Positions 31,300-59,841 of a DNA stretch of 64,000 nt are shown piece after piece. Origin of the DNA: Steroidobacter agaridevorans (lineage in GTDB: Bacteria > Pseudomonadota > Gammaproteobacteria > Steroidobacterales > Steroidobacteraceae); assembly GCF_009932555.1 (NCBI RefSeq), contig NZ_BLJO01000001.1, forward strand, positions 250,472 to 314,471. Reading direction: 5' to 3'. Under the pieces are notes generated by a model. The model did no database searches. It worked only from the letters and a program-made list of their open reading frames with translations, and was not told the origin of the DNA. Every line of letters starts with the position of its first letter. Positions within the stretch are counted from its first letter, which is position 1. Position numbers and translations under genes: made by a program.

Positions 31300-33972
31300 A
31301 TGCGACGACGTCCAGCTTTATTCGGCGCCTGTGCACTGGTCGCGGTGACAACCGCAGCGGCACAGGAGGCGGACACCGAACAGGTCGTGGAGCAGGTGGT
31401 CGTGACGGGCACGAGCATTCGTGGCGTGGCGAGTGCCGGCGCACCGGTAATCGCGATGGATCGCGAAGAGCTCGTCGCCACGGGCCTCGCAACCAGCAGC
31501 GATCTCGCCCGCGCCCTTCCCCAGGTGCTGAATCTCGGCGCCGATGAAAGCCGACTCGGCGGTGCGCAGGACGGCGCTGCGAATGCCACGCGGGTCTCGG
31601 GCATCAATCTGCGCGGCATCGGCAACGAAGCGACGCTGCTCCTCATCAACGGCCGGCGTCTCGCGCCCGCCGGCGTCATCAAGTCGCTCTACGATCCCAA
31701 CGTCATCGCATCGGCCGCAATCGAGCGTTTGGAAGTCGTGGTCGACGGCGCCTCGGCCATCTACGGCTCCGACGCCGTCGCCGGCGTCGTCAACATCATC
31801 ACTCGCAACGACTTCGAGGGCGCCGAAACGATGGCCCGCTACGGCGTCGCCGATGGCACCAGTCAGAAGATCATCAGCCAGAACTTCGGCTTCACCTGGG
31901 ACACGGGCAGCGTGTTCGCGGCGTACGAGCACAACGAGCGTGACAATCTGTCGGGCGCCGATCGCGACTTCGCATCCAACGATCGTCGCGCACGTGGCGG
32001 CTCGGACGCACGGCCGGGCCTCGCCTCACCAGGCAATATCGTGATCGGCACGACCCGTTACCCGCTGCCGGCCGGCCCGGGCACCGGCCTCGATCCGGCG
32101 CAACTGACCGCAGGCGCGCCGAACCGATTCGACGAAGGCTCGTTCGCCGATCTGCTGCCGAATCAGGAACGCGACAGCTTCTTCCTGGATGCGCGTCAGG
32201 CATTCGGCAGGCTGGACGTCTGGTATCAAGGCTGGCTCTCCGAGCGCGAGTTCGATGAGCGCGTCGCGCCCGCCTCGGGACAGTTGCGTGTGCCGAACAC
32301 GAATGCGTTCTTCGTCGCTCCCGCGGGCATCGCCCCGCCGGCGTTCGTCAACGTCGAGTATCGCTTCCTCGCCGAAGATGCCGATCCCCGTCTGTCGGGT
32401 TACGAGAATGCCCAGCAGAACGCAATCGGCGCGGGCTACGATCTGGGCGCCGACTGGCGCATCGAAGGCTACGCGAATCTCAGCAAGAATCGCGGCTTCC
32501 AGCGTCGTGGCGCGATCACCAACGGTGCCGCCTTGACCGCAGCGTTGGCGAGCAACAACCCGGCGACCGCGTTCAATCCCTTTGGCGACGGCACATTCAA
32601 CGTCACCAACAATCCGGCGCTGGTCGATCTGATCATTGCCAATCGCGACACTCACGCCACGAGCGAAGCACGCGATCTGGCGTTGAAGGCCGATGGTCCA
32701 TTGTTCTCGCTGCCAGGCGGCGATGTGCGAGTGGCCGTGGGTATGGAGCGGCACGACAACGAGTTCAGTCAGCGGCTCGACGCCAACAACGTGCTCGCGT
32801 CCGGCGCAGTCACGACCAAGAACATCCTGAATCGTCGTCACAACACCTCGTTCTTCGGCGAAGTGTTCGTGCCCGTGGTGAGCGAGGAGCAGTCGATTCC
32901 GGGCATTCACAGCTTGAGCGTGTCGGTGGCGGGGCGTCGCGAGGAGTATTCCGACTTCGGCTCGACCACCGATCCGAAGGTTGGCGTGATCTGGCGACCC
33001 ATTTCGTCCCTGACGGCACGAGCCACTTACGGCACATCGTTCCGCGCGCCATCGCTCGTCGACACCAGCGAGCAGATCCACAACATTTTCATTCAGACGC
33101 TGACCGATCCCGCCAGCGGCACTGGTGTCACTCGCGGCATCTATCACAACGGCGGACGCGCTTCGTTGAAACCCGAAGAAGCGACGACCTGGTCCGTGGG
33201 TCTGGACTGGGCTCCGATGGGCGCGCTACAGGGCCTCACGGCATCGCTCACCTACTACGACGTGGACTACACCGACCGCATCGACGTCGTGCTGAACACG
33301 GCGCTCACGAATGCGTCGGTGTACGGTCCCTATGTCATTCGCCGGCCACCCGCGAGCGATGCCACGGCCACCGCCGCCTTCAATGCGCTGGTGCAGTCCT
33401 TCCTGAGCAATCCGGACCTGCAGAGCCCGGCCGAACCCGTTTCCAATATCAATGCCATCATCGACGGCCGCCGCGCGAATCTCGGCAGCATGAAGCAGCA
33501 AGGCATCGATCTGAACCTCGGCTACAGCTTCAACACCTCGTTCGGCGACTGGCGCATGGGCTTCGATGCCGCGAAGATCCTCGACCTGACTCGTTCCATC
33601 GCGCCGGGCCTGCCCTACGTCGATGTGCTCGACACGTACAGCAATCCCGTCGACCTGCGAGCACGCGCATCGGTAGGCTGGCGATTGAATGGCTGGTCGG
33701 CGAACGCGTATCTCAACTACGTCGACAGCTATCGCAACACGGCGATCACGCCCAATGTCGAGGTCGACAGCTACAAGACCGTCGATGCCTCGATCGTCTA
33801 TGACTTCGGCGAGGAACGCGGCGCGCTCAGCGGCGTGAGCCTGTCGGTCAACGGCCAGAACCTGCTCGATGAGGATCCGCCGGTGGTGTTGAACGGCATC
33901 GTGTCGTGGGACAACCAGAACGTCTCGCCGCTCGGCCGGTTTGTTTCCTTCGTGCTCACAAAGCGCTGGTGA
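31300..33972 (+). CDS. TonB-dependent outer-membrane receptor
   Basis: An 890-residue protein with a signal peptide ending AAA near residue 21, a TonB-box-like VEQVVVTGTSIRG, a plug (LLLINGRRLAPAG, IERLEVVVDGASAIYGSDAVAGVVNI in pieces) and a barrel ending RFVSFVLTKRW. The GTSIRG...INGRR type differs from the other four receptors of this window and resembles receptors used for larger organic substrates in Caulobacter and Xanthomonas relatives. It is followed two bases later by a CocE-type hydrolase, so the imported compound may carry an ester or amide bond. Confidence 0.9.
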   Translation: MRRRPALFGACALVAVTTAAAQEADTEQVVEQVVVTGTSIRGVASAGAPVIAMDREELVATGLATSSDLARALPQVLNLGADESRLGGAQDGAANATRVSGINLRGIGNEATLLLINGRRLAPAGVIKSLYDPNVIASAAIERLEVVVDGASAIYGSDAVAGVVNIITRNDFEGAETMARYGVADGTSQKIISQNFGFTWDTGSVFAAYEHNERDNLSGADRDFASNDRRARGGSDARPGLASPGNIVIGTTRYPLPAGPGTGLDPAQLTAGAPNRFDEGSFADLLPNQERDSFFLDARQAFGRLDVWYQGWLSEREFDERVAPASGQLRVPNTNAFFVAPAGIAPPAFVNVEYRFLAEDADPRLSGYENAQQNAIGAGYDLGADWRIEGYANLSKNRGFQRRGAITNGAALTAALASNNPATAFNPFGDGTFNVTNNPALVDLIIANRDTHATSEARDLALKADGPLFSLPGGDVRVAVGMERHDNEFSQRLDANNVLASGAVTTKNILNRRHNTSFFGEVFVPVVSEEQSIPGIHSLSVSVAGRREEYSDFGSTTDPKVGVIWRPISSLTARATYGTSFRAPSLVDTSEQIHNIFIQTLTDPASGTGVTRGIYHNGGRASLKPEEATTWSVGLDWAPMGALQGLTASLTYYDVDYTDRIDVVLNTALTNASVYGPYVIRRPPASDATATAAFNALVQSFLSNPDLQSPAEPVSNINAIIDGRRANLGSMKQQGIDLNLGYSFNTSFGDWRMGFDAAKILDLTRSIAPGLPYVDVLDTYSNPVDLRARASVGWRLNGWSANAYLNYVDSYRNTAITPNVEVDSYKTVDASIVYDFGEERGALSGVSLSVNGQNLLDEDPPVVLNGIVSWDNQNVSPLGRFVSFVLTKRW

Positions 33973-36606: not shown

Positions 36607-37701
36607 ATGGAGCTGATCTTCACCGGCGATCTGATTCTCGATGAGCCCCAGCCCGATCACTGGCTGGGAGGCATTGCGCCAGCGCTGCGCAGCGCGGATC
36701 TGACCATCGGGCATCTGGAAGTCCCGCATACAACTCACATCGCTGCGAGCCGCGACGATGTGCCCGCCCCCGGCGCCGATCCGACTCATCTTCCGGCACT
36801 GGCGCGAGCAGGAGTCGGGATCGTGACGCTGGCCGGTAATCACATCGCAGATCTGGGTGAAATCGGCATTGCCGATACGATTCGCGGTCTGGCCCACGCG
36901 GACATTGCGTACACCGGCGCCGGCGCAAACCTCATTGAGGCTCGCAAACCTGCGATCGCTTATCGCGGCGGCAAACGCATCGCGGTCCTGAGTTACAACT
37001 GTGTCGGCCCGGAGAGCGGGTGGGCCGGCCCCTCTCATGCCGGCTGTTCATACATTCGGGTCGAGCCCGCCGATGGCGGTCCGATTCGACCGGCAGCGGC
37101 GCTCGAGCGTATCGACCCGGCATCGTTCGTCACCCTCGCCGAAGACATCAGGAACGCCAAGGCGCTGGCGGATTTCGTCGTCGTCGCCTTTCACAAAGGC
37201 ATCGTGCATACACGAGCCAGGCTCGCTCCCTACGAACGTCCCCTCGCCCACGCGGCCGTCGAAGCCGGTTGCGATGTCGTCATCGGTCATCACGCTCACA
37301 TCGTGCGCGGGATAGAGTTTCATCGCGGCGTGCCCATCTTCCACGGTCTCGGCAACGGATGCGTCGTCACTCGCGCGCTGAGCCCCGATCAAGCCTCGCC
37401 AGAGCGTGCTGCCTGGGCTCGCAAACGCAAGGAGTTGTTCGGCTTCGAGCCCGATCCAGCGTATGTGCTCGCACCGTTTCATCCGGAGGCCGTCAACGCG
37501 CTGTTGGGTCGGATGCGCATCGACGCGGCGGGCAAGATCCGTGTCGGATTCATTCCCGTGCATGTCGATCCACCGGGCCGGCCGCGCCTTGCGCCAGAGG
37601 CCGCTCAGCGCATCGCCGATTACATACAGACCATCGGTATCGAAGCCGGTCTGCCGCCGCTGACCATGCAAATCACAAGTGAGGGCGTGTGGCTGAATTG
37701 A
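36607..37701 (+). CDS. CapA-like metallophosphoesterase-fold protein
   Basis: A 364-residue protein of the CapA/PgsA (poly-gamma-glutamate biosynthesis) fold, with no signal peptide or membrane helix seen. Metallophosphoesterase-like landmarks: FTGDLILDEP, IGHLEVPH, TLAGNHIADLGEIGIADT, VVAFHKGIVHT and IGHHAHIVRGIEFHRG with FHGLGN. No other capsule gene is present. As the first gene of an operon for transport and CoA-thioester chemistry, it more likely acts on a small metabolite or nucleotide (such as CoA or phosphate ester cleavage) than on a polymer. That is inference. Its last 13 bases overlap dctQ. Confidence 0.75.
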   Translation: MELIFTGDLILDEPQPDHWLGGIAPALRSADLTIGHLEVPHTTHIAASRDDVPAPGADPTHLPALARAGVGIVTLAGNHIADLGEIGIADTIRGLAHADIAYTGAGANLIEARKPAIAYRGGKRIAVLSYNCVGPESGWAGPSHAGCSYIRVEPADGGPIRPAAALERIDPASFVTLAEDIRNAKALADFVVVAFHKGIVHTRARLAPYERPLAHAAVEAGCDVVIGHHAHIVRGIEFHRGVPIFHGLGNGCVVTRALSPDQASPERAAWARKRKELFGFEPDPAYVLAPFHPEAVNALLGRMRIDAAGKIRVGFIPVHVDPPGRPRLAPEAAQRIADYIQTIGIEAGLPPLTMQITSEGVWLN

Positions 37702-38174
37702 TCGAACGCGACAACAGCGGCCAGACCCGCGGGCCTTTGTTCTATATCGGCGCCGGTGGCCTGATGCTCGCGATGGCGGTCGAAGCGCTCGCCGTGCTTG
37801 GGCGTCATGCGGGCATTCCCTTGCTGGGTGCGCTGGAAATCATCCAGGCGTGCATTCTGCTGATGGCTTCGGCGGCGATGCTTTCGGCGACGTTGAACAA
37901 GGGGCATGCGACTGTCACGTTGCTCACAGCTCGTGTCGGCGATCGAACACGCAGCTATCTGCACGCCTTCGCCAATCTGCTGTCGGCGCTGTTCTTCGTT
38001 GGGCTGGCGGCGGGCGTGCTGTGGCTCGCGGCCGAATCGTGGCACGACTACGAGCAAAGCGAGCTGCTGCATATTCCTTTCCGTCCGCTTCGCATCGTGT
38101 CGCTGGTCGCGGCCATCGCCATCGTACTGGTGTTCCTGCGCGATATGTGGCGCTCGCTTCGGGTGCGTGCATGA
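37689..38174 (+). CDS. dctQ: TRAP transporter small permease
   Basis: A 161-residue membrane protein with four predicted helices (FYIGAGGLMLAMAVEALAVL, ALEIIQACILLMASAAML, FANLLSALFFVGLAAGVLWL, IVSLVAAIAIVLVFLRDMW). That matches the DctQ small subunit. The GTG start overlaps the capA-like gene by 13 bp, and the stop overlaps dctM by ATGA. It stabilises the DctM transporter subunit. Confidence 0.85.
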   Translation: MAELIERDNSGQTRGPLFYIGAGGLMLAMAVEALAVLGRHAGIPLLGALEIIQACILLMASAAMLSATLNKGHATVTLLTARVGDRTRSYLHAFANLLSALFFVGLAAGVLWLAAESWHDYEQSELLHIPFRPLRIVSLVAAIAIVLVFLRDMWRSLRVRA

Positions 38175-39463
38175 ACGGCCTCCTCGGCGTCATCGCCCTG
38201 CTGGTCCTGCTGACGCTCGGAGTTCCTATCGGCATCTCGATGGGCGTGGTCGGCATGGTCGGTCTGATGCTGCTGCTCGGCCCCGAGCCCGCCATCATCA
38301 AGTCGGGTGTCGTGCTGTTCGAAACAATCACCCGCTACGAGTTGGGCGTGCTGCCGCTGTTCCTGTTCATGGCCCACCTTTGTTTTGCCGCGGGCGCCAG
38401 TCGTGACTTCTTCGAAGCGGCCGCACGAATGGTCGGACACCGTCGCGGAGGTCTCGCCATTGCGTCGGTGGCGGGTTGCGCAGGCTTCGGTGCAATCAGT
38501 GGTTCGAGCCTCGCGACCGCGGCCACCATTGGATTGATCGGTCTGCCCGAGATGCGCAAACGCGGTTACTCCGATGCGCTCGCGACCGGATCGATCGCTG
38601 CCGGCGGCACGCTCGGTTCGATCATTCCTCCGTCGGGCGCCTTGATCGTGTTCGGCATTCTCGCCGAGCAGTCCATTGGAAAGCTGTTCACGGCCGCCAT
38701 CATTCCCGGCCTGTCGCAGGCGCTGTTCTACATCATCACCATTGTGTTGCTGTGTCGGTGGCGGCCGTCGATTGGACCTGCCACGGCCCGCGCTCCGTGG
38801 ACTGAGCGGCGTGCGGCGCTGTTCCGCATCCTCGATCTCGGCGCGTTGATTTTGGTCGTGCTCGGCGGCATTGCTTTTGGTTGGTTCACGCCGACCGAAG
38901 CGGCCTCCGTAGGCGCGACGGGTGCGTTGCTTCTCTGCGCCTGGCGTCGCAAGTTGAATCGCGACTCGTTGCGCGAGGCGCTGGCGCAGACGCTGCGCAC
39001 GACGGGAATGATCTATGTCGTCATCATCGGCGCGCTGATCTTCGCCGTGTTCATGAGCTACACCGGTCTTGCCGAACAGGTCGCCGATTTCATGGAAGGA
39101 CTACCCGGCGGCACGCTGACGGCCATCATCATCATGACCGTTTTGCTATTGCTGCTTGGCTCGGTGCTCGACGGTCTGGCGCTGATGCTGCTGACCACGC
39201 CCATCCTGCTGCCCATCGTGACCGATCTCGGCCTGTCGCCGATCTGGTTTGGCATCTACCTGGTGCGCACGATGGAGATCGGTTTCGTCCATCCGCCGAT
39301 CGGCATCAACCTGTATGTGATTCAAGGCATCGCCAAGGACGTGCCGCTGATCCGCATTTTCAAGGGCGTCGTGCCGTTCCTGGCGGCCGACTTGTTACAT
39401 CTGTCGCTGTTGATCGCCTTGCCGGCGATGGCGTTGGCGCTGCCAGGGTGGTTGAACCAATGA
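38171..39463 (+). CDS. dctM: TRAP transporter large permease
   Basis: A 430-residue membrane protein with about 12 helices, the channel subunit of a tripartite ATP-independent periplasmic transporter. Typical DctM motifs are GVPIGISMGVVGMVG, ISGSSLATAATIGLIGLPEM, GTLGSIIPPSGALIVFGIL and FGIYLVRTMEIGFVHPPIGIN. It uses the ion gradient to import carboxylates delivered by DctP, whose gene lies 4.7 kb downstream in the same operon instead of adjacent. The ATGA overlaps at both ends show strict coupling. Confidence 0.92.
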   Translation: MNGLLGVIALLVLLTLGVPIGISMGVVGMVGLMLLLGPEPAIIKSGVVLFETITRYELGVLPLFLFMAHLCFAAGASRDFFEAAARMVGHRRGGLAIASVAGCAGFGAISGSSLATAATIGLIGLPEMRKRGYSDALATGSIAAGGTLGSIIPPSGALIVFGILAEQSIGKLFTAAIIPGLSQALFYIITIVLLCRWRPSIGPATARAPWTERRAALFRILDLGALILVVLGGIAFGWFTPTEAASVGATGALLLCAWRRKLNRDSLREALAQTLRTTGMIYVVIIGALIFAVFMSYTGLAEQVADFMEGLPGGTLTAIIIMTVLLLLLGSVLDGLALMLLTTPILLPIVTDLGLSPIWFGIYLVRTMEIGFVHPPIGINLYVIQGIAKDVPLIRIFKGVVPFLAADLLHLSLLIALPAMALALPGWLNQ

Positions 39464-40611
39464 GTTTGTTGACGTTGTTGAATCGCAGCTCAGGCGATCC
39501 CATGCAGGCGGCACGGTCGCAGCGCGCGATTGGCTATTTGGGGTGGGATGTTCCGGTCGAACTGATTCTTGCCGCCGGCGCGGTGCCAGTGCAGTTGAGT
39601 GCGCTTCCGCACTCGGGCGACACGACATTGGCTGATCGCTTTCTCGAGAGCAGCTTTTCCGCGCAGAGCCGTGTGATGGCGGATCGGTGGCTTGCGGGAG
39701 ATCTGGATTGCCTGGACGCCGTGATCTTCTCCCGGAGCGATGACAACGCTCAAAGGTTGTACTACTACCTTTGTGAGCTGCAGCGCATGGGTGAGTGCAA
39801 AGGGCCACGGCCTCTGCTCTACGACCTCGCTCGAATTCATCGTGGATCGAGTGTGGCGCACACGATTGAGTCCACGCAGGCGTTGGCGTCTGCTGTGGGT
39901 GTGGATGAGTCGAGGCTGAGCGCGGCGATCGAGCAGGTTGTTGCTCGACAGGTGCTACTGAGTCAGCTTGCGCAGCTGCGAACCGCAGACGATGTGCCGC
40001 TGGGATCTGTGGCATATCGAATCGTGCGGGGTGCGCGTACAGATTGGTCTGAAGAGTTCGATCGATCGATGCGGGAGTGGCTTGCAAGCCCCGCGACTGT
40101 CGGGCCGTCCAAGCGAGTGTTGCTGGTCGGCAGCGTGCCGTTCGACGATCACGTCCACGCAGCGATTGAAGTGGCTGGCACCGTCGTCGTTGGCGAGATC
40201 AATGACGCCTGCTCGGTAGCCTCCCTCTCCTTGCACGCCAATCAAGGCAATGGCTCACCGTCGAGACTCTCTGCCGGGAGCGCGCCGACCGGCAGCTTGG
40301 CCCCTGGCCGGGATTCGTCATCGCCGCTCGAACTCATTGCACGCCGCTGCTACGAGCAAACAAACGCGATCAGCACGCTGCTGCAATCCCCGGCCGACAT
40401 CGTCCAAACCGCCCGAGCCCTGCGGGCTGACGGCGTCATCGTTTGGATGCTCGCCACCGACACCGGCTTGGCCTGGGAAGCACCTCGCATTGAGCGCGCG
40501 CTGCGTGAGGCGTCGTTACCGACGCTCATGCTGACCTCGCAGCCTGAGACGCTCAGCGCTGAAGCGCTCACTGAGATCGCGCAGTTCCGTCGCACGCTGG
40601 AGGCTCGATGA
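39460..40611 (+). CDS. 2-hydroxyacyl-CoA dehydratase-like subunit lacking cluster cysteines
   Basis: A 383-residue protein with the fold signature of the HgdB/BcrC family: IGYLGWDVPVELILAAGAVP at the N-terminus, LDAVIFSRSDDNAQRLYYYL, and ADGVIVWMLATDTG...EAPRIERALREASLPTLML near the C-terminus. The three places where this family normally has [4Fe-4S]-ligand cysteines read SSFSAQS (about 64-70), FSRSDDN (90-96) and MLATDTG, so none has a cysteine. The region 252-285 is a Ser/Pro/Gly-rich insertion. It thus cannot bind a standard cluster and may be a structural or CoA-binding partner of the second subunit at 42877. Role unknown; the assignment rests on family pattern. ATGA overlap with dctM. 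Confidence 0.7.
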   Translation: MSLLTLLNRSSGDPMQAARSQRAIGYLGWDVPVELILAAGAVPVQLSALPHSGDTTLADRFLESSFSAQSRVMADRWLAGDLDCLDAVIFSRSDDNAQRLYYYLCELQRMGECKGPRPLLYDLARIHRGSSVAHTIESTQALASAVGVDESRLSAAIEQVVARQVLLSQLAQLRTADDVPLGSVAYRIVRGARTDWSEEFDRSMREWLASPATVGPSKRVLLVGSVPFDDHVHAAIEVAGTVVVGEINDACSVASLSLHANQGNGSPSRLSAGSAPTGSLAPGRDSSSPLELIARRCYEQTNAISTLLQSPADIVQTARALRADGVIVWMLATDTGLAWEAPRIERALREASLPTLMLTSQPETLSAEALTEIAQFRRTLEAR

Positions 40612-40696
40612 GATCGCAGCACGAACACCGCAAATCCAGCGACGCCGCAAATATGCGCAAGGCGGGCGCATTGGCTCATTTCGCTGCGGAGGTTCA

Positions 40697-42880
40697 ATGA
40701 GCCCGCTCGCCGGCATGCTCGTGCTTGCACTCGGAAGCGCTCAAGACGGCGCTCTCGCCCGATTGCTAACTAGTTTTGGCGCGCGGGTTAAGCCCGTTCA
40801 GCTTCCAACCCTGGCGGACGAGCTGCCGCGCGCCGATTTTCTTATCGAAGGCATGGGCCTGCCCGCTTTGCGACGTGCGGGTCTCTCGCGCGAGCAGATC
40901 GAGCACATCAATCCCCGCCTGATCCACGTATCCGTCACAACTTTCGGCAGCGAAGGTCCACGCGCCGAGTGGCATGGCGGTGAATTGGTCGCATCCGCCA
41001 TGGGCGGCACCCTTCGAGTGACCGGCGACGTCGATCGCTCACCCGTGAAAGAAGCCCTGGACGCCTGTTGGTTTCACGCCGACATGGTCGGCGCAGCCGG
41101 CGCGATGGCAGCGCTGGTAGAACTGGCAAACACCGGGCGCGGCCAGCACGTCGATGTCTCCGTGCAGGAAGTCGCGTTCTCTCGCAACGTCAATGGCGTC
41201 CTCGTCTGGCAGTTCGATCGTCGCAAGTTACATCGCGTCGGCGGCGCGCTGAACTACGGACGCGCGACCGTCCGCTGCATCTGGCCACTCGCCGATGGCT
41301 TCTGCTTCCACACTTTGATGACGGGCCGTTTCGGCGCACCAGCCAATCAGGCTCTGAGCGACTGGATCGACGAAGCCGGCTTATCCAACCCGCTGCGAGG
41401 CGTCGACTGGACGCGCTACAACCGCTCGACGCTCGATCCGCAAACGCGGCGCGAATGGGAGCAAGCCATCGAAGCCTTCTTCTCGACACGCACACGAGAG
41501 GAAATCTCGACGGACGGCCGCCGCCGCGGCATCAATGCAACCGTCGTCGCCGAGCCCAGCGACGTGCTCGCCGATTCACACCTGAAAGCCCGCAACTTCT
41601 GGACGAGCGACGCGAACGGCAAACGCAAGCCCTCGCGCTTCGTTTCAATGAAGGAAGGCTCACAACCGGCGCAGCCCACTCGAAACAATGCTCGCCTTCC
41701 CGAACGCCCCGGTCCACTCAAAGGCCTCCGAGTCCTGGACTTCTCCTGGGCCCTGGTCGGCTCGATCACCACCAAGGTCCTCGGCGATCTGGGCTGCGAC
41801 ATCATCAAAGTCGAAACACGCAGCCGCCCCTGCCTGTCCCGCATCGACGTGCAAGTGAACGCCTCGCGCGCCGACAGCTTCGACGACAAGCCCTGGTTCG
41901 CGCACTTGAACACATCCAAGCGCAGCCTCGCGCTCGACCTGAAGCTGCCGCACAGTCGCGACGTGCTCGACCCGTTGCTCGACTGGGCCGACATCGTGGT
42001 CGAGAACTTCTCGCCCGGCACGATGGCGAAGCTCGGCCTCGACTACGCATCGCTGCAGAAGCGCAACCCTGGCGTGATCATGGTTTCCGGCAGCGTGTTC
42101 GGACAAACCGGTCCGCTCGCCGAATCGTGGGGCGTGGACGGCACCGGCGCCGCCCTCTCCGGCCGCACCTTCCTGACGGGCTGGCCCGACAGAAACCCGG
42201 TCATTCCGGGCGCTGTCCCCTATGGCGACGTCATTGTTCCTTACGTGATGGCAGCCGCGACGGCCGCCGCTGTCGAGCATCGCCGTCGCACCGGCAAGGG
42301 TTGTCACATCGACGCGGCGATGTACGAAATCTGCGTCCAGCAGATGCATGAGGCAATCATCTCCGCCGAGCGCGGCAACCGACCGATGCGCAACGGCAAC
42401 GACGATCCGAAGATATTCCATCAAGGCGTCTACGCGACCGCAGGCGATGACCAGTGGATTGCGATCACACTGGCGGCGCAATCGGATTGGCAGCGACTCT
42501 GTACGGACGCGAACTTCAACGCCGAACAATCCCCGCGCGACGCCGAGTCCGCTCTGAAAGCATGGTTCCGTCAGCACGAAGCGCATGTCCTGATGGAACG
42601 TCTGCAAGCAGCCGGCATCGCCGCGGGCGTCGTGCAGGACATCGAGGATCTCATCGAGCACGACCCGCAAATCGCGGCTCGACACGCCTTGATGAATCTG
42701 GAACACCCGCTGCTAGGAGCCTTTGGCCACGTGCGAACGCCCATCAGTTTCTCCGCAGCCGTCACGTCCCCCTATCGCGCACCGTCGATCGGCGAGCACA
42801 GCCTCGCCATCGCCAGAGACCTGTGCGGACTGAGCGCGTCCCGCATCGAAGAGCTGGAGCGGCTCGGAGTGTTTCGATGA
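40697..42880 (+). CDS. Double-domain family III CoA-transferase (CaiB/BaiF fusion)
   Basis: A 727-residue protein made of two consecutive family III CoA-transferase units. Unit 1 (about 1-335) has HPRLIHVSVTTFGSEGP-like text and GRGQHVDVSVQE; its N-terminus is shortened. Unit 2 (about 345-727) is complete: LKGLRVLDFSWALVGSITTK, NTSKRSLALDLK, ADIVVENFSPGTMAKLGLDY, and GKGCHIDAAMYE. The conserved (V/I)D of the active-site motif is kept in both. Family III enzymes usually work as interlocked homodimers of one-unit chains, so a fused pair could mimic a heterodimer. It has a GCGGAGG Shine-Dalgarno sequence, and its stop overlaps the next gene by ATGA. It would activate the imported acid by CoA transfer. 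Confidence 0.85.
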   Translation: MSPLAGMLVLALGSAQDGALARLLTSFGARVKPVQLPTLADELPRADFLIEGMGLPALRRAGLSREQIEHINPRLIHVSVTTFGSEGPRAEWHGGELVASAMGGTLRVTGDVDRSPVKEALDACWFHADMVGAAGAMAALVELANTGRGQHVDVSVQEVAFSRNVNGVLVWQFDRRKLHRVGGALNYGRATVRCIWPLADGFCFHTLMTGRFGAPANQALSDWIDEAGLSNPLRGVDWTRYNRSTLDPQTRREWEQAIEAFFSTRTREEISTDGRRRGINATVVAEPSDVLADSHLKARNFWTSDANGKRKPSRFVSMKEGSQPAQPTRNNARLPERPGPLKGLRVLDFSWALVGSITTKVLGDLGCDIIKVETRSRPCLSRIDVQVNASRADSFDDKPWFAHLNTSKRSLALDLKLPHSRDVLDPLLDWADIVVENFSPGTMAKLGLDYASLQKRNPGVIMVSGSVFGQTGPLAESWGVDGTGAALSGRTFLTGWPDRNPVIPGAVPYGDVIVPYVMAAATAAAVEHRRRTGKGCHIDAAMYEICVQQMHEAIISAERGNRPMRNGNDDPKIFHQGVYATAGDDQWIAITLAAQSDWQRLCTDANFNAEQSPRDAESALKAWFRQHEAHVLMERLQAAGIAAGVVQDIEDLIEHDPQIAARHALMNLEHPLLGAFGHVRTPISFSAAVTSPYRAPSIGEHSLAIARDLCGLSASRIEELERLGVFR

Positions 42881-44172
42881 GCACCATTACCCACAGCAGC
42901 GGCCAACGCAGTCGCAAAGACCTGGAATGCACGGCCGCGGCGACCGCGTATCAACGCGAGTTTGTCACCGAACTGAAGAAGCGCGTCATCGACGCGGGCG
43001 AGCCGTTCGCCATCGCGCAGGCCGACACGCCGCACGAAATCTTCCACGTGATGGATATTCCGCTGGTCACCAATCAATGGTGGTCGGCCTATATCTCCGC
43101 CAAGCAGCTGTCGAATCATTACGATCAGGTGCTCGGCAAGCTGGGCTATCCGGCGAATCGATGCCGTTACTGCTCGCTCGGGCTCGCCTGCACGCTCGAC
43201 AACAATCCTCGCGTCGCGCCCTGGGGCGGACTGCCGAAGCCGACGGTGCTCGTGGCTCGTCTCACCTGCGAGTGCATCGAGCACGTCTTCAGTCAGTGGG
43301 CAACGGCGCTCGGCAGCGAGTTCTTCCCGCTGGAGGCGCCGGGCTGGCAACACAAAGATCCCCAATGGTTTCGCAACTCCAACGAGCGCTGGGATGAAGT
43401 ATTCGAACAGCGCCGCATCGAGCTGCTGGTTCGCGAGATGCGCGAGCTGATCGCATTGCTCGAAGCCCGCACCGGCCGCAAGTTCGATGAGGACAAGTTT
43501 CTGCAGCTCATGCTCGCGATCAACGAGCAGGAAGGTTACATCGCGGAAGCCGCCGAAATGATCGGCGCCGCACGCCCCTGCCCGGTCTCGATCGCAGAGC
43601 AAATGCCAAACACGATGATTCCGCAGTGGCATCGCGGCTCGCCTTGGGCCGTGGCCCATGCACGCCGCTTCCGTGACGAAGTGAAACAACGCATTGCCGC
43701 TGGCGTCGGTGTCGGCAGTCGCGAGCGCCTGCGATTGATGTGGATCGGCGCTGGGCTGTGGCACGACCCCGGCTTCTACAGCGCGCTCGAAGATCAATAC
43801 GGCGCCGTGTTCGTGTGGTCGATGTACATGCCGTTCGCGGGACCGCAGTACATTCGCGAGCTGCGTGACCGGCCGATGCATGCGCTGGCAAGCCGCATCT
43901 GCTCGATGAATGAAGTGCTGCATCTCCCGCCCTGGATGAATGAGTGGATGGTGAGCGAAGCGCAGCGCTGCGACATCGACGCGGCCGTGATGCTCGTGCC
44001 ACCGGACAATCGTCTGTCGCAGTCGGGCACAAAGATCACCGAACATGCGCTGGCTCGCGCCGGCATTCCGACCCTGGCCTTGTCCGCCGACATGGTCAGC
44101 GCCAAGGATTGGAGCCACGAGCGCATGGTGCAGCATGTCGCCGGTTTCCTACGGCAAGAGGGTCTTTTGTGA
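42877..44172 (+). CDS. 2-hydroxyacyl-CoA dehydratase/benzoyl-CoA reductase-like subunit
   Basis: A 431-residue protein of the HgdA/BcrB-like group. It keeps cysteines at the first and second ligand regions (RCRYCSLGLAC, C96, C99, C105; RLTCECIEH, C131, C133). The third region, VPPDNRLSQSGTKITEHA, has no cysteine. Family hallmarks include AQADTPHEIFHVMDIPLVTNQWW and ALARAGIPTLALSADMVS. In canonical enzymes this fold binds a [4Fe-4S] cluster, is reduced by an ATP-dependent activator and removes water from 2-hydroxyacyl-CoA by ketyl radical chemistry or reduces aryl-CoA. Here no activator gene is seen and the partner lacks cysteines, so the chemistry may differ. Coupled by ATGA and GTGA to its neighbours. 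Confidence 0.72.
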   Translation: MSTITHSSGQRSRKDLECTAAATAYQREFVTELKKRVIDAGEPFAIAQADTPHEIFHVMDIPLVTNQWWSAYISAKQLSNHYDQVLGKLGYPANRCRYCSLGLACTLDNNPRVAPWGGLPKPTVLVARLTCECIEHVFSQWATALGSEFFPLEAPGWQHKDPQWFRNSNERWDEVFEQRRIELLVREMRELIALLEARTGRKFDEDKFLQLMLAINEQEGYIAEAAEMIGAARPCPVSIAEQMPNTMIPQWHRGSPWAVAHARRFRDEVKQRIAAGVGVGSRERLRLMWIGAGLWHDPGFYSALEDQYGAVFVWSMYMPFAGPQYIRELRDRPMHALASRICSMNEVLHLPPWMNEWMVSEAQRCDIDAAVMLVPPDNRLSQSGTKITEHALARAGIPTLALSADMVSAKDWSHERMVQHVAGFLRQEGLL

Positions 44173-45209
44173 GGGTGCTTCTTGCCCTGCTTATTATATG
44201 TATAGCCGGCTGCACCCAGCCGACGCCGGGCGTGACGGTGCTGACCTATGCAAGCCCATTCAGTCCGGGCCACCCATTCAGCCGGGCCGATATCGCCTGG
44301 ATGAAATGGGTCGAACAGCAATCCGACGGCCGCATCGAGATTCAGCCGTACTGGTCCGGATCGCTGCTGTCTTCCGAGCACTCGATGCACGAGCTGCGAC
44401 ATGGCGTCGCCGATATCGGTTTGATCACACCGATCTATGCGCGAGGCGGCGCTCATCTCATTCGAGCGCAGGCGGGGTTCTACGGCGGACTCACCACGTT
44501 CGAGCAGCAAACCGCACTCTGGCGCTGCATGGCCGCCGCCGATCCGCAGTTCGGACGCGAGTTGCATGGCTTGAAGATTCTCGCCGTCCAGGGCGGCAAT
44601 CTTCCGGGCATCGTCACGCGGGATCGAGCGATACGCACGCTCGATGACCTGCGCGGGCTGCGATTGCGTGCGCCCTCGGAGTTGCTGGCGGTCCTCAAAG
44701 ACCTGGGCGCCGATCCCATCGACATGCCGATGGGCGAAGTGTATTCGGCGCTTGCCAAAGGCGTGCTCGATGGCGTGGTCGCGCCACCGGACACTCTCAA
44801 GTCGCTGCACTTCGCGGAGGTCGCGAAGTATTTCAACACGATCAGAATTCCTCGAGGCGCTTACGCTGCCCGCGCCATCGGTGAGCGTCGCTGGCGCAGC
44901 CTGACGGCCGAGCAACGCGACTTGCTCGAACGCAGCACCGAAGTTTGGGAACAATCCCTGGCAGCGGAGCTGCTGGTCGCCAACGACGTCGGCCTCGCCG
45001 CCGGCCGCGAACATCACGTCGAATTTCACGACATGCCCGCGGCTGAGCAGGCGAGGTTCGACGCGATTTACGAACGCGATGGCGAAGTGCGAGCCCGCGC
45101 CCTCGCCCGCTTTGGCATCGACGGCCTACCCACTTACAGGCTGGCGCGCTCGGTCGCCGCGCAAGTCATGGACGACGGCGGCATCCGCTGCAGCAGAGAT
45201 CAAACATGA
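44169..45209 (+). CDS. dctP: TRAP transporter substrate-binding lipoprotein
   Basis: About 346 residues from GTG 44169, which overlaps the previous stop (GTGA). The lipobox IICIAGC near residue 15 marks a lipoprotein, whereas most DctP proteins are soluble. DctP landmarks: SPFSPGHPFSRADIAWMKWVEQQSDGRI in pieces, LRHGVADIGLITPIY, LDDLRGLRLRAP and GEVYSALAKGVLDGVVAP. It would capture a carboxylate in the periplasm and pass it to DctQM. Placement of dctP between CoA-metabolism genes is atypical and ties transport to that chemistry. Confidence 0.88.
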   Translation: MRVLLALLIICIAGCTQPTPGVTVLTYASPFSPGHPFSRADIAWMKWVEQQSDGRIEIQPYWSGSLLSSEHSMHELRHGVADIGLITPIYARGGAHLIRAQAGFYGGLTTFEQQTALWRCMAAADPQFGRELHGLKILAVQGGNLPGIVTRDRAIRTLDDLRGLRLRAPSELLAVLKDLGADPIDMPMGEVYSALAKGVLDGVVAPPDTLKSLHFAEVAKYFNTIRIPRGAYAARAIGERRWRSLTAEQRDLLERSTEVWEQSLAAELLVANDVGLAAGREHHVEFHDMPAAEQARFDAIYERDGEVRARALARFGIDGLPTYRLARSVAAQVMDDGGIRCSRDQT

Positions 45210-46405
45210 GCCTACCCCTGGAAGGAATTCGCGTCGCAGACTTCAGCCATGTGATGGCCGGACCGTTCGCCACTCATCTGCTACGAATGCTCGGCGCGGA
45301 AGTCATCAAGATCGAAGCCCCCGGCCGGGGCGACGCGATGCGTAACTACGGCGCCGATCGTCGCTACGACGGCATGGCCCCCGCCTTCATCGGCGTGAAC
45401 GCGGGCAAGAAGTCCCTCGTGCTCGATCTCAAACAACCGTTGGCGCAGGAAGCGGCACGCCGCTTGATCGCAACGTGCGACGTGCTGATCGAAAACTTTC
45501 GCCCCGGCGTGATGGCGAAGTTCGGCCTCGATTACGCATCGGTGCGCTCGCTGCGTCCCGAATTGATCTATTGCTCCATTTCCGGCTACGGACAAAACGG
45601 TCCACGTCGCGACTGGCCGGCGATCGACAACATCGTGCAGGCCACGACCGGAATGATGACACTCGGCGGCGCGGCGGGTGATGCTCCCGCGAAAGTCGGC
45701 TTCCCCGTGGTCGATACGCTCACCGGCCAGACAGCAGCATTCGCGATCCTTGCCGCTCTGCTACGACGGCAGCGCGAACGTCGGGGTGAATACATCGATG
45801 TCGCCATGTTCGACGCCAGCATGGCGTTCATGACTTCGGCCATCGTGCCCTATCTGGTCACTGGCAATCCGCCCGAGCGCACCGGAAACATCGGCTACAG
45901 CGGACAACCCACCTCCGCCGTGTTCGCCGCCAGCGACGGCCGGCAGATATCGTTGGGCGTCGTACAGCAGGCGCAGTTCGAGGCGCTGGCCCGCGAAGTC
46001 GGACGCAAACGCTGGCTGGAAGATCCTCGTTTCCTCACGCCGGATCTGCGACGCAAACATTCCGCCGAGATGCGCGACGAGCTCGACAGAGTGTTTGCCG
46101 AGGCGCCTGCCGAACACTGGGAGACCCGGCTCAGCGCCGCCGGCATTCCCTGCGGCATGATTCGCAATGTTGCCGAAGCCGTCTCTCTGCCGGCGCTGGA
46201 ATCACGCCGACTGAAGCTCGGTTTGAAGGTTCCGGGCTTGCCCGACCGCGAACAGGTAGAAATCGTGAACGCGGGCTTTCTGTTCAGCGAAGATCAACCG
46301 GGCGTCGCCTCGCCGCCGCCCCAGCACGGTCAGCACAGCGAGGAGATCCTGAAGTCGCTGGGATTCTCGGCCGCCGAGATTCGAGCACTTCACATCGAGG
46401 ATTAG
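45206..46405 (+). CDS. Family III CoA-transferase (CaiB/BaiF)
   Basis: A 399-residue single-unit CoA-transferase: LEGIRVADFSHVMAGPFATHLLRMLGAEVIKIE in pieces, VNAGKKSLVLDLK, CDVLIENFRPGVMAKFGLDY, ELIYCSISGYGQNGP and RRGEYIDVAMFDASMAF with the conserved aspartate. These enzymes move CoA between carboxylic acids without ATP. With the double-domain enzyme at 40697 the operon holds three transferase units, suggesting separate CoA donor and acceptor steps. ATGA overlap with dctP. Confidence 0.9.
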   Translation: MSLPLEGIRVADFSHVMAGPFATHLLRMLGAEVIKIEAPGRGDAMRNYGADRRYDGMAPAFIGVNAGKKSLVLDLKQPLAQEAARRLIATCDVLIENFRPGVMAKFGLDYASVRSLRPELIYCSISGYGQNGPRRDWPAIDNIVQATTGMMTLGGAAGDAPAKVGFPVVDTLTGQTAAFAILAALLRRQRERRGEYIDVAMFDASMAFMTSAIVPYLVTGNPPERTGNIGYSGQPTSAVFAASDGRQISLGVVQQAQFEALAREVGRKRWLEDPRFLTPDLRRKHSAEMRDELDRVFAEAPAEHWETRLSAAGIPCGMIRNVAEAVSLPALESRRLKLGLKVPGLPDREQVEIVNAGFLFSEDQPGVASPPPQHGQHSEEILKSLGFSAAEIRALHIED

Positions 46406-46485: not shown

Positions 46486-47169
46486 GTGAGCTCCAAGAGA
46501 ATCACGGGCGACAAGTTCGCGCCCAAAATGGATCGCCGTTGGGAGCGCACCCGCGCGGCGTTGATGAGCGCCGGTCGCACTTTGTTCGCCTCGCGCGATG
46601 TCGAGGGCGTCACCGTCGATCAGATCGTCGCGACGGCGGAAGTCGCCAAGGGCAGCTTCTACAATCATTTCGTCGACAAGGACGTGTTCGCCCGCGAGAT
46701 CGCAAGCTCCGTGCGGCGGCAGGCCGAGCAGGCGGTCAACGAAGCAAACGCCAACGTGACCGATCCGGCAGCGCATCTGGCCCGTGCGCTTTGCGTGTTC
46801 ATGCGCTTTGCCATCGAGCATCGCGAAAGCGCTCAAGTGCTGTGGCGTCTGAACGCCGGCGCCACCATGGTCGACGCGCCGATCAATCGAAACCTGCGCA
46901 ACAACGTGCAGGAAGGCATCGATCAGCAGCGCTTCAAGCATGTGGACATCGAAGTCGCCGCGCTGCTGGTGATGGGCACCATCGTCATCTCGTTGCGTCA
47001 CGCCCTGGAAGATCGGCTCGTGACACCGCACATCGACATCGCCAAAGGCATGGCGGCCGGCCTGTTACGCTCACTCGGCGTGCCCGCCGCTCAATCCGAC
47101 CGCCTCGCTGGCGAAGCGGCCAACGATATCCTGGCGCCTCAGAAATCCACGCTCGCCGAAACGAAATAG
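46486..47169 (+). CDS. TetR family transcriptional regulator
   Basis: About 227 residues from GTG 46486 (VSSKRITGDKF). The start is uncertain because the frame runs to an ATG at 46426 and no clear Shine-Dalgarno sequence decides. The helix-turn-helix is RAALMSAGRTLFASRDVEGVTVDQIVATAEVAKGSFYNHF (shown here in the text only as RTLFASRDVEGVTVDQI and AKGSFYNHF). The C-terminal part is the ligand-binding helical domain. It lies 80 bp after the CoA-transferase gene and overlaps the convergent TBDT gene by 31 bp. It may control either the CoA operon or the receptor. Confidence 0.85.
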   Translation: MSSKRITGDKFAPKMDRRWERTRAALMSAGRTLFASRDVEGVTVDQIVATAEVAKGSFYNHFVDKDVFAREIASSVRRQAEQAVNEANANVTDPAAHLARALCVFMRFAIEHRESAQVLWRLNAGATMVDAPINRNLRNNVQEGIDQQRFKHVDIEVAALLVMGTIVISLRHALEDRLVTPHIDIAKGMAAGLLRSLGVPAAQSDRLAGEAANDILAPQKSTLAETK

Positions 47170-49487: not shown

Positions 49488-49684
49488 CGGCAGCCCCCTG
49501 CGACGTTATATTTTGAACCATTACGTCACTATTGGACGATTCCGTCAATAGTGGCTCGGACGGCCCACCGAGCGGATCCATTCATGCTGCTTATAGCCGG
49601 GAGATACAGAAGGTGTTACCTCACCGGGCCGCTTCTGCCCTAGTGTTCCGGCCTCAGGCCAGACGACTTTTGAACCGCACGAAC
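49488..49684. promoter_or_regulatory. Divergent TBDT/P450 promoter region
   Basis: A 197-bp gap. The first 60 bp (49488-49550) are AT-rich, including TTACGTCACTATTGGACGATTCCGTCAATAG-type sequence in which CGTCA and its repeats CGTCACTATTGG/CGTCAATAGTGG recur at about 49524 and 49543. These two half-sites could bind a regulator such as the neighbouring TetR protein. The rest shows no gene. Confidence 0.4.
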
Positions 49685-50890
49685 ATGCCCACCGATCCGT
49701 CGCTCCTCAACGAGTACGATCCCACGCTCCCCGAAACGTTTGACAGCGTGCATGCGACATTTGCCGACCTGCGCGCCCGCTGCCCGGTCGCGCACAGCAC
49801 GCAATTCGATGGCTTCTGGACGCTGGCGCGCTATGAGGACATCGTCAACGTCCTGCGCGATCCGGACATGTACATCACGTCGGTGCGCAACGTGGTGCCC
49901 GGCTCGTCGACGACGGGTCGTCGGCCGCCGCTGCATCTGAATCCGCCCGAGCACACGCCTTATCGACGCGCGATCGATCGTGCGCTCAGTGCGAGCCGCG
50001 TCGCTTCGTTGCTGCCGGCGACACAACGCATAGCGCTCGAGCTGGCGACAGACCTCGTGGCGCGCGAAGAAACGGACCTGGTCGAGCACTTCTCGGCCGT
50101 CCTTCCCGTGCGACTGTTCGGCGAGTGGCTCGGCCTGGATGACAAGCAGACGGAACATCTCGCCACGAACTCGCGCGCCTACATCAAAGCCTGGGAGGCC
50201 TTCGACAAGCCCGGCGTGGTCGTGGCGGGCGAAGGTTTGGCGACACTGGCGCGCGAACTGATCGAACAGCGTCGCCTGCATCCGCTGGATCCCACCATCG
50301 ATCCCACCAGCTCGCTGCTCTCAGAGCGCGATGCGGACGGCAATCCGTTCCCGGACGTGCTGTTGGCGGGCTGTGTGCGTCAGGTGCTGGTCGTCGGCCT
50401 GGTCGCGCCGCCCATTCTGTTGGGAAGCATCGCCGTCCATTTGTCTCGAGATCGGGAACTGCAACAGCAGTTGCGTGCCGATCGGTCGCTGATCCCGGAT
50501 GCCGTCGAGGAGTTCGTTCGTCTGTACACGCCCTATCGCGGGTTCGCGCGAACGGCTCGTGAGGACGTCACGATTCGCGGCCGTACGATTCCCAAAGACG
50601 AACCCATTGCACTGTTGTATGCGTCGGCGAATCGGGACGAAGCCGTGTTCCCCGAGCCGGACAAGTTCATCCTGCGTCGACCGAACATCAATCAACACAT
50701 CGCGTACGGCCGCGGCCCGCACATGTGCGCCGGTGTTCCTCTCGCCCGTCAGCTGTTGCGTGTCTCGCTCGATGCGCTGTTACTGAAAACGAGCCATTTC
50801 GAACTGAGCGGCGACGTGCGCATGAGCGGCATGCCGGAAGTCGGGCCGCTCTACGTGCCGCTGCGCATGACGCGCGCCAAGTCCTCCTGA
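49685..50890 (+). CDS. Cytochrome P450 lacking the acid-alcohol pair
   Basis: A 401-residue soluble bacterial P450 from MPTDPSLLNEYD. The heme-ligand loop is YGRGPHMCAGVPLAR (Cys348), the K-helix ExxR is E276-F-V-R279, and HLNPPEHTPYRR is the usual C-helix region. The I-helix segment where most P450s have (A/G)Gx(D/E)T(T/S) reads VVGLVAPPI (236-244): the acid is valine and the threonine is alanine. That pair normally controls proton delivery to bound oxygen. The enzyme may use substrate-assisted protonation or a different reaction. No ferredoxin or reductase gene is adjacent, apart from the distant Rieske gene. Confidence 0.9.
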   Translation: MPTDPSLLNEYDPTLPETFDSVHATFADLRARCPVAHSTQFDGFWTLARYEDIVNVLRDPDMYITSVRNVVPGSSTTGRRPPLHLNPPEHTPYRRAIDRALSASRVASLLPATQRIALELATDLVAREETDLVEHFSAVLPVRLFGEWLGLDDKQTEHLATNSRAYIKAWEAFDKPGVVVAGEGLATLARELIEQRRLHPLDPTIDPTSSLLSERDADGNPFPDVLLAGCVRQVLVVGLVAPPILLGSIAVHLSRDRELQQQLRADRSLIPDAVEEFVRLYTPYRGFARTAREDVTIRGRTIPKDEPIALLYASANRDEAVFPEPDKFILRRPNINQHIAYGRGPHMCAGVPLARQLLRVSLDALLLKTSHFELSGDVRMSGMPEVGPLYVPLRMTRAKSS

Positions 50891-59821: not shown

Positions 59822-59841
59822 GGCCACTTGTGACAGTCCCG

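Follow-up and report, generated by a model that had tools for sequence, protein, structure and literature searches.

An operon of Steroidobacter agaridevorans with an activator-free, ligand-depleted pair of the 2-hydroxyacyl-CoA dehydratase family

The locus

The window studied here is a stretch of 64,000 nucleotides from Steroidobacter agaridevorans (NCBI RefSeq assembly GCF_009932555.1, contig NZ_BLJO01000001.1, positions 250,472 to 314,471 of the forward strand), from a genome of 8.0 Mb. At positions 36607-46405 it contains an operon of eight genes, which combines a TRAP (tripartite ATP-independent periplasmic) transporter, two coenzyme A (CoA) transferases and two proteins of the HGD-D family (PF06050), here called S1 and S2. 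The benzoyl-CoA reductase/2-hydroxyacyl-CoA dehydratase family is textbook material for ATP-driven, oxygen-sensitive radical chemistry on CoA thioesters. S1 and S2 belong to PF06050 in sequence and predicted fold, yet they fail three defining features of the activator-dependent enzymes. These are an activator in the genome, three cysteine ligands in S1, and three cysteine ligands in S2, of which two are kept.

An initial annotation, made from the letters alone, had described eight coupled genes here. They are present, all on the same strand and all matching Pfam families above cut-off:

36607..37701, +, CapA-like (PGA_cap) protein; PF09587, 170 bits; NF038314, 83.5 bits (cut-off 700); PDB 8gq9
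37689..38174, +, TRAP small permease DctQ; PF04290
38171..39463, +, TRAP large permease DctM; PF06808; TIGR00786 above cut-off
39460..40611, +, S1, HGD-D subunit of HadC/BzdN type without canonical cysteines; PF06050, 71 bits
40697..42880, +, double family III (CaiB) CoA-transferase; PF02515, two stretches
42877..44172, +, S2, HGD-D subunit of HadB/BzdO type; PF06050, 152 bits
44169..45209, +, TRAP solute-binding protein DctP, lipoprotein-like N-terminus; PF03480
45206..46405, +, single CaiB CoA-transferase; PF02515, 374 bits

Most junctions were said to overlap, and six of the seven do: five by 4 bases (ATGA or GTGA) and one by 13 bases. The seventh is a gap of 85 bases between the genes for S1 and the double CoA-transferase. 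Going by Pfam, DctP, DctQ and DctM make the TRAP transporter complete.

Conservation among genomes

To find other copies, 84,980 species genomes were scanned with short conserved stretches of S2, which detects close relatives only. This yielded 67 distinct loci in other genomes, with S2 identities of 65-99%. The hosts are other Gamma- and Alphaproteobacteria: Steroidobacter and its relatives, Novosphingobium, Sphingobium, several Erythrobacteraceae, Asticcacaulis, Phenylobacterium, Parvularcula, and metagenome bins. The S2 of locus L004, from the close relative Peristeroidobacter agariperforans, is 99% identical to that of the window. Named plasmids with the conserved gene order come from Novosphingobium ES2-1 and from Croceicoccus marinus, and Novosphingobium subterraneum DSM 12447 and N. 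taihuense (L009 and L010) have the complete operon.

In 40 of the 67 loci the eight genes are all present, in unchanged order and on one strand, so this gene set is not there by chance. A script classed the remaining 27 as cut by a contig end (16) or as differing (11). Three of the loci classed as cut (L051, L053 and L058) lack a gene inside the operon. Two of those classed as differing (L012 and L068) also have the eight genes in order; a second CapA gene misled the script. CapA is absent from L021 and L027 and sits elsewhere in L069, and the downstream CaiB gene is absent from L062. S1 was detected in 61 of the 67 loci, and the other six are truncated upstream of S2. The S1 and S2 pair is therefore the constant core of the operon.

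Farther relatives come from an even sample of the phylum (398 genomes). Relatives of S2 occur in six of these, two of which (G191 and G232) are weak matches to ordinary, activator-linked proteins. In the distant relative G325 the CoA-transferase genes are split and TRAP genes are present. In G351, S1 and S2 are fused into a single protein of 795 residues.

Two of the 67 loci are odd in other ways. The copy in Novosphingobium sp. ERN07 (L067) looks decayed, with a fragmented double CoA-transferase, a stop within S2, and DctQ and DctM not found. L021 is on a contig labelled as a Klebsiella pneumoniae metagenome bin, with an S2 identity of 73%; the bin label is doubtful for that contig.

The missing activator

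The search for the ATP-dependent activator, with model TIGR00241, covered 28 + 26 genomes. These are the window's genome, G131, G325, G351 and the genomes of 50 of the 67 loci. The other 17 locus genomes, mostly with short contigs, lie outside this search. No activator scored above cut-off in any of the 28 or the 26 genomes with the operon or its divergent relatives, and the lone sub-threshold match among the 54 is one of 21 bits in G432. The same search was positive in 6 of 14 control genomes. The initial annotation had noted that an activator is missing. This is the case genome-wide and not merely at the locus, so an activator elsewhere that is always inherited along with the pair was not found. 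Homologous operons also keep both the gene order and the absence of an activator, two points that the annotation had put forward as a check.

The phylum sample gives the same picture from the other side. PF06050 is above cut-off in 8 of the 398 genomes, and below cut-off in two more. Four of these genomes (G093, G240, G191 and G232) have ordinary PF06050 proteins, and their activators lie no more than about 1 kb from the pair. Another four (G000, G131, G325 and G351) belong to the present clade and have PF06050 proteins but no activator. In the two weak cases, G002 and G057, activator domains are part of the same very long open frame.

One candidate in the window's genome was rejected. Its sole PF01869 protein resembles an N-acetylglucosamine kinase (71.5 bits) and adjoins an AgaS-like sugar isomerase, both under their models' cut-offs.

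Family, fold and residues of S1 and S2

S1 scores 71.3 bits and S2 151.6 bits against PF06050, where the gathering cut-off is 28.4, which makes both members of the HGD-D family. In profile searches S2 matches MbdO, BzdO and HadB, which are catalytic subunits, and S1 matches HadC, BzdN and DCCP (double-cubane cluster protein). AlphaFold2 models have a pLDDT of 85.9 for S2 and 91.5 for S1. Foldseek aligns the S2 model to MbdO/BzdO with a TM of 0.79, and the S1 model to BzdN with a TM of 0.77. The predicted fold is the two-domain one of the BzdNO/HadBC subunits.

According to PMC11971306, three cysteines of BzdO (Cys95, Cys128 and Cys380) hold a [4Fe-4S]-OH2 cluster, Glu65 and His131 are active-site residues, and BzdN binds an [8Fe-9S] cluster through six cysteines. 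The equivalent positions were read from alignments. That of S1 contains the window protein and 60 loci; L067, whose copy is short and looks decayed, and those loci that have no sequence upstream were omitted. That of S2 contains the window protein and 66 loci, L067 being omitted for its in-frame stop. The alignments labelled A1 and A2 hold 33 and 34 loci respectively, plus the window protein. Two joint alignments with activator-linked proteins have 13 and 15 operon rows; the second adds a pair from Sphingopyxis and the two named operons.

S1 has lost all three shared cysteines. At sites 67, 94 and 334 there is no Cys in any of the 61 rows. Position 334 is acidic throughout (Asp in 47, Glu in 14), and Asp95, beside another of the lost sites, is invariant. 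The first joint alignment has the three cysteines in 5/5 activator-linked proteins versus 0/13 operon rows. In the enlarged one this becomes 6/6, Sphingopyxis included, versus 0/15.

S2 has changed less. Cys is found at the canonical sites C96 and C131 in 67/67 rows. The third canonical site falls on N378, which is Asn in 61 rows, Ser in 5 and a gap in 1; the joint alignment with 13 operon rows shifts it one residue earlier, to D377. The site of the catalytic Glu is Gln67 in 67/67 rows. At the corresponding positions, all four S2 rows from activator-linked pairs show the three Cys and the Glu. S2 also has extra cysteines, namely C99 and C105 (67/67 rows) and C133 (66/67). These are not seen in activator-linked S2 rows, save for a Cys at 105 in the S2 of Sphingopyxis. 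They may form a metal site, as far as sequence goes.

From the number of its cysteines, S2 was considered as a double-cubane protein; only C96 and C131 occupy canonical S2 sites. It was also asked if Cys342 and Cys370 substitute for each other, which was rejected, as both are present in 14 of the 67 rows.

The initial annotation had spoken of import, CoA activation and an HgdA/HgdB-type reaction in a single operon. The combination of functions is there. The reaction type is not upheld, since S1 has none of three canonical cysteines, and S2 has two of three with Glu replaced by Gln. Because the residues behind that chemistry have changed, the reaction of S1 and S2 is probably not a reductively activated dehydration. 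A reductive start is also improbable, given that the electron-receiving subunit S1 lost its ligands and that no activator exists to serve it.

The hosts of the operon are presumably aerobes, and it is plausible that S1 and S2 work under air. It would be tempting to argue from an aerobic host to oxygen-tolerant chemistry. This argument is ruled out by a plasmid of Sphingopyxis macrogoltabida (L107), a sphingomonad like many of the hosts. It carries an ordinary HGD-D pair with an annotated acyl-CoA dehydratase activase, and this pair retains all three cysteines per subunit as well as the Glu. In the sequences compared, ligand loss thus tracks activator loss, not the kind of host. The Sphingopyxis pair adjoins genes for an acyl-CoA dehydrogenase and a thiolase.

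Divergent paralogues

Eight divergent paralogues of S2 were compared at the five N-terminal cysteines (C96, C99, C105, C131 and C133). Six have none of them, G446d has one (C99), and G446a has three (C96, C99 and C131). None of the five is present in a ninth paralogue, from a Rhizobium plasmid. Two paralogues, G446d and G436a, have Glu at the catalytic Glu site, and Gln67 therefore marks the operon clade and not the whole branch.

The S1 paralogues G446b, G446c and G436b have also lost the three shared cysteines. They do carry cysteines elsewhere, at sites 28 and 249. A profile alignment, read by eye, suggests that these align with Cys36 and Cys263 of BzdN. These proteins may bind a different cluster, at another sub-site.

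Genome G446 has a region of 120 kb (G446:C10:1-120000, containing L080-L085) with five S2 copies and their S1 partners, and with split CoA-transferase pairs. The region also holds twelve P450-like genes, two Rieske-type oxygenases, CapA-like proteins and PobA. It is apparently a catabolic island centred on the S1/S2 family.

Other proteins of the operon

The CapA-like protein has no evident signal peptide, judged by eye. It is a weak relative of the lasso-peptide epimerase MslH, as the sub-threshold NF038314 match and PDB 8gq9 in the list indicate. Its conserved motifs, over 51 rows, are GDl.LDep, gHlEVPH, AGNHiaD, HKG, HHaHI and HGlGNGC.

Both CoA-transferases belong to family III (CaiB), having PF02515 matches and the conserved Asp, which we take to be the catalytic-type Asp of that family. 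In the single CaiB protein this is Asp170, in 56/56 rows. In the double protein, Asp511 of the second half is found in 62/62 rows and Asp129 of the first half in 52/62. The closest CaiB models, those of succinate/glutarate and oxalate transferases, all score far under cut-off. In DctP, Cys15 is conserved in at least 95% of 60 rows.

Neighbouring genes

Four genes directly around the operon are of interest:

31300..33972, +, TonB-dependent receptor; Pfam TonB_dep_Rec_b-barrel 105.8 bits, Plug 47.5 bits
33906..35792, +, CocE/NonD-type hydrolase (Peptidase_S15 and PepX_C by Pfam); NCBIfam TIGR00976 282.7 bits
35795..36496, -, GntR/FCD regulator (Pfam)
46486..47169, +, TetR regulator; PF00440

How often such neighbours recur was counted by gene clusters, based on gene calls from GC content at third codon positions (GC3) that contain antisense artefacts, so all of these counts are approximate. 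The TonB receptor cluster is in 47 of 67 loci, that of the CocE/NonD hydrolase in 45, and that of the GntR regulator in 21. The TetR gene clustered with L004 and L005 only, and is probably not a fixed part of the module. The initial annotation had placed GntR and TetR regulators at the edges, where they indeed are, but its boundary was too tight: the receptor and the hydrolase habitually accompany the operon. The window's receptor is 36% identical over 873 amino acids to the one adjoining the operon in L079. The closest solved structures to the hydrolase are those of cocaine esterase, and it is a probable ester hydrolase.

Farther downstream there is a second set of genes, where the start codons of the first three are unrefined:

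57977-60079, -, AMP-binding ligase; 68% identical to a gene directly adjoining the operon in L006
59842-60915, -, Amidohydro_2; 90% identical to a gene directly adjoining the operon in L006
60702-62828, -, enoyl-CoA hydratase/3-hydroxyacyl-CoA dehydrogenase; 77% identical to a gene directly adjoining the operon in L006
from 63845, PobA, extending beyond the window end

The genes at 57977-62828 are a possible downstream route.

Between the operon and this set there are other genes that recur. At 50967-53359 (-) are two neighbouring genes of 361 and 538 amino acids as called (starts unrefined), without a Pfam match, whose clusters are in 12 and 15 of the 67 loci. The larger one has four copies in G446:C10, three of them adjoining a P450 gene. 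The window has a cytochrome P450 of its own at 49532-50890 (+). The G446 island holds five homologues of it, 49-59% identical, and relatives lie close to the operon in L004, L005 and one further locus.

Genomic context and substrate class

PobA, hydroxycinnamoyl-CoA lyase, hmgA and gyrB were searched for in the same 50 locus genomes plus that of the window (51 genomes). PobA (4-hydroxybenzoate 3-monooxygenase) is above cut-off in 45 of these. In 12 it is on the same contig as S2 and at most 25 kb away (G000, G398, G399, G407, G411, G418, G421, G425, G426, G437, G446 and G447). As controls, hmgA is this close to S2 in one (G407) of the 20 genomes that have it, and gyrB or parE in two of 51 (G415 and G441; read by eye). 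The linkage of PobA to the operon is suggestive.

Individual copies add to this. Both L034 and the C. marinus plasmid have hydroxycinnamoyl-CoA genes next to the operon, namely those for p-hydroxycinnamoyl-CoA hydratase/lyase, a ligase and an aldehyde dehydrogenase. In L006 the ligase, amidohydrolase, FadB-like and PobA genes directly adjoin it, and the window carries the same ligase-amidohydrolase-FadB set. After CaiB, G131 has in a row CocE, a sub-threshold PETase-like match, aldehyde dehydrogenase and PobA. In G351, pca genes and PobA adjoin the fused S1/S2 locus. L064 has a VanA-like oxygenase between esterase and CapA, and the cluster of this oxygenase is found in 4 loci. The ES2-1 copy has a tannase/feruloyl esterase about 10 kb from S2, and is flanked by glucuronate genes as well.

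This context suggests an esterified substrate of 4-hydroxyphenyl or hydroxycinnamate type. Rosmarinate-type esters (hydroxycinnamoyl aryl-lactate) have been considered.

Interpretation

A tentative reading, to which we give slightly less than an even chance, is that the genes of this locus serve as a module to take up and activate an ester-bound aromatic acid, one of the 4-hydroxyphenyl/hydroxycinnamate kind, and that this module feeds a non-reductive step by S1 and S2. The TonB receptor would carry the conjugate across the outer membrane, and the CocE/NonD hydrolase would cleave the ester. The TRAP transporter would then take up the freed acid, and the family III CoA-transferases would form its CoA thioester, with another acyl-CoA as the CoA donor. 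The S1/S2 pair would work on that thioester. S2 might catalyse a (de)hydration, an isomerisation, a C-C cleavage or another such step on the acyl-CoA by acid-base or Lewis-acid chemistry, and the product could join the route from hydroxycinnamoyl-CoA via 4-hydroxybenzoate to protocatechuate. Import, CoA transfer and ester cleavage are proposed because of family membership; from this and the context we infer the cellular locations, the CoA-transfer step and the substrate class.

For S1 and S2 themselves, descent from the benzoyl-CoA reductase/2-hydroxyacyl-CoA dehydratase family, without reductive activation, is probable going by sequence. A non-reductive acyl-CoA step suggests itself as the simplest reading. 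It could well be, with the chances falling a little short of balanced, that the pair and its divergent paralogues are an undescribed branch of the family. Such a branch would have shed its activator and cluster ligands and become a non-reductive acyl-CoA enzyme of aerobic aromatic catabolism, with a fold that, in the Cys-free paralogues, works without the usual Fe-S cluster.

Several observations weigh against this picture. Not every part of the operon is essential: the double CoA-transferase is absent from L040 and L066, L058 has no TRAP permeases, and no DctP was detected in L051, L053, L064 and L065, the last two of which lack CaiB too. Of the 62 rows of the double CoA-transferase, 10 have a replacement at Asp129. 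The mapping of the third S2 ligand depends on alignments of about 20% identity. The PobA linkage comes from 12 genomes in some four groups (five Steroidobacter relatives, four Erythrobacteraceae, two Sphingosinicella and one Sphingobium bin), and the Fisher's test p values of 0.05 (versus hmgA) and 0.008 (versus gyrB/parE) ignore this relatedness. In the other 39 of 51 genomes PobA is more than 25 kb away, on another contig, or under cut-off, which short contigs explain in part. Only three of 51 genomes (G407, G411 and G435, the last being L034) have the hydroxycinnamoyl-CoA lyase at this distance or less, and hmgA, likewise an aromatic gene, is close in one genome.

The 39 of 51 genomes without a close PobA would suit a non-aromatic substrate, a dicarboxylate or other polar acid, with PobA nearby through chance clustering of catabolic islands. 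TRAP transporters and family III CoA-transferases often serve dicarboxylates, the closest CaiB models point the same way (at scores far under cut-off), and there are the glucuronate genes flanking one copy. We find this unlikely, because the PobA linkage exceeds both controls, and because aldehyde dehydrogenase, PobA, hydroxycinnamoyl-CoA lyase and VanA-like oxygenase genes adjoin copies in several genera. The substrate may also be aromatic and the chemistry still redox. Since the five N-terminal cysteines are in 66 or 67 of 67 rows, exceeding an ordinary S2, they could hold a metal or a remodelled Fe-S or zinc site. The pair would then be a redox enzyme related to benzoyl-CoA reductase but tolerant of oxygen, with ferredoxin or some other ordinary donor supplying the electrons. 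Weighed against this are the paralogues, where seven of eight S2 rows hold at most one of the five cysteines and the fold seems functional without them, although paralogues may catalyse other reactions. The eight operon genes also include no gene for an electron donor. On balance this too has a low probability.

A further alternative is that S1 and S2 are a working, if unusual, 2-hydroxyacyl-CoA (aryl-lactoyl-CoA) dehydratase that produces hydroxycinnamoyl-CoA. It would have no activator of its own, and only S2 would hold a cluster. A CaiB-type transferase serves the dehydratase in the clostridial FldA-FldBC system, and the same role is assumed here. Family ancestry fits, the transferase and the pair share an operon, and the hydroxycinnamoyl-CoA genes adjoining some copies would start from this very product. 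Removing an alpha-hydroxyl without a radical is chemically hard, however. With no activator above cut-off in 54 genomes, the S1 ligands lost, and the third ligand and catalytic Glu of S2 changed, this is quite improbable. Finally, the pair might be ordinary and activator-dependent, with the activator overlooked. Some of the genomes are drafts, and there is the single sub-threshold match in G432. This is very hard to believe: TIGR00241 recovered the activators in all four ordinary sample genomes, the only PF01869 protein of the window's genome looks like a sugar kinase, and an overlooked activator is contradicted by the ligand loss that parallels its absence.

Returning to a non-reductive step by S1 and S2, the joint loss of activator and ligands, in a branch whose S2 stays 65-99% identical among many lineages, implies that the same scaffold serves a different reaction. 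This may be a step not yet described in how plant aromatics are broken down. In public annotation of the two named copies, S2 is a '2-hydroxyacyl-CoA dehydratase family protein' and S1 a 'hypothetical protein', which could misdirect pathway reconstruction.

Comparison with known systems

No description of this operon, or of an activator-free, ligand-depleted branch of PF06050, was found in the literature searched, with subscription papers and preprints outside that search.

The HadBC, HgdAB and FldBC dehydratases are also of the PF06050 family, with a CoA-transferase in the operon. Those systems consist of the dehydratase with a CaiB transferase and an activator. Here, the genomes are without an activator, the canonical cysteines are lost, the CoA-transferase is a fused double one, and TRAP, TonB and esterase genes have been added.

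For double-cubane cluster proteins (PDB 6eno and 7yyl), the fold of the S1 model is similar, at a TM of 0.71-0.78. S1 differs from them in being without the conserved ligand set, and no reductase partner was found.

The cou/phd-type beta-oxidation of p-hydroxycinnamates is similar in its genes. As PMC4737184 describes it, in the cou route of Rhodococcus an amidohydrolase-superfamily enzyme (CouO) yields the aromatic acid. The window has a ligase, a hydratase/dehydrogenase, an amidohydrolase and PobA within about 19 kb of the operon end. Compared to that route as described there, the HGD-D pair and CaiB are extra.

The class I benzoyl-CoA reductases BzdNO/MbdON (PDB 8s02 and 9g87) likewise have two HGD-D subunits, which form a heterodimer there. 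The predicted folds of S2 and S1 are close to theirs, and an aromatic acyl-CoA context is likely in both. The operon differs in having no activator, no canonical S1 ligands, and a changed third [4Fe-4S] ligand and Glu65 equivalent in S2. It is this contrast with activator-linked relatives that makes the purpose of the cluster directly testable.

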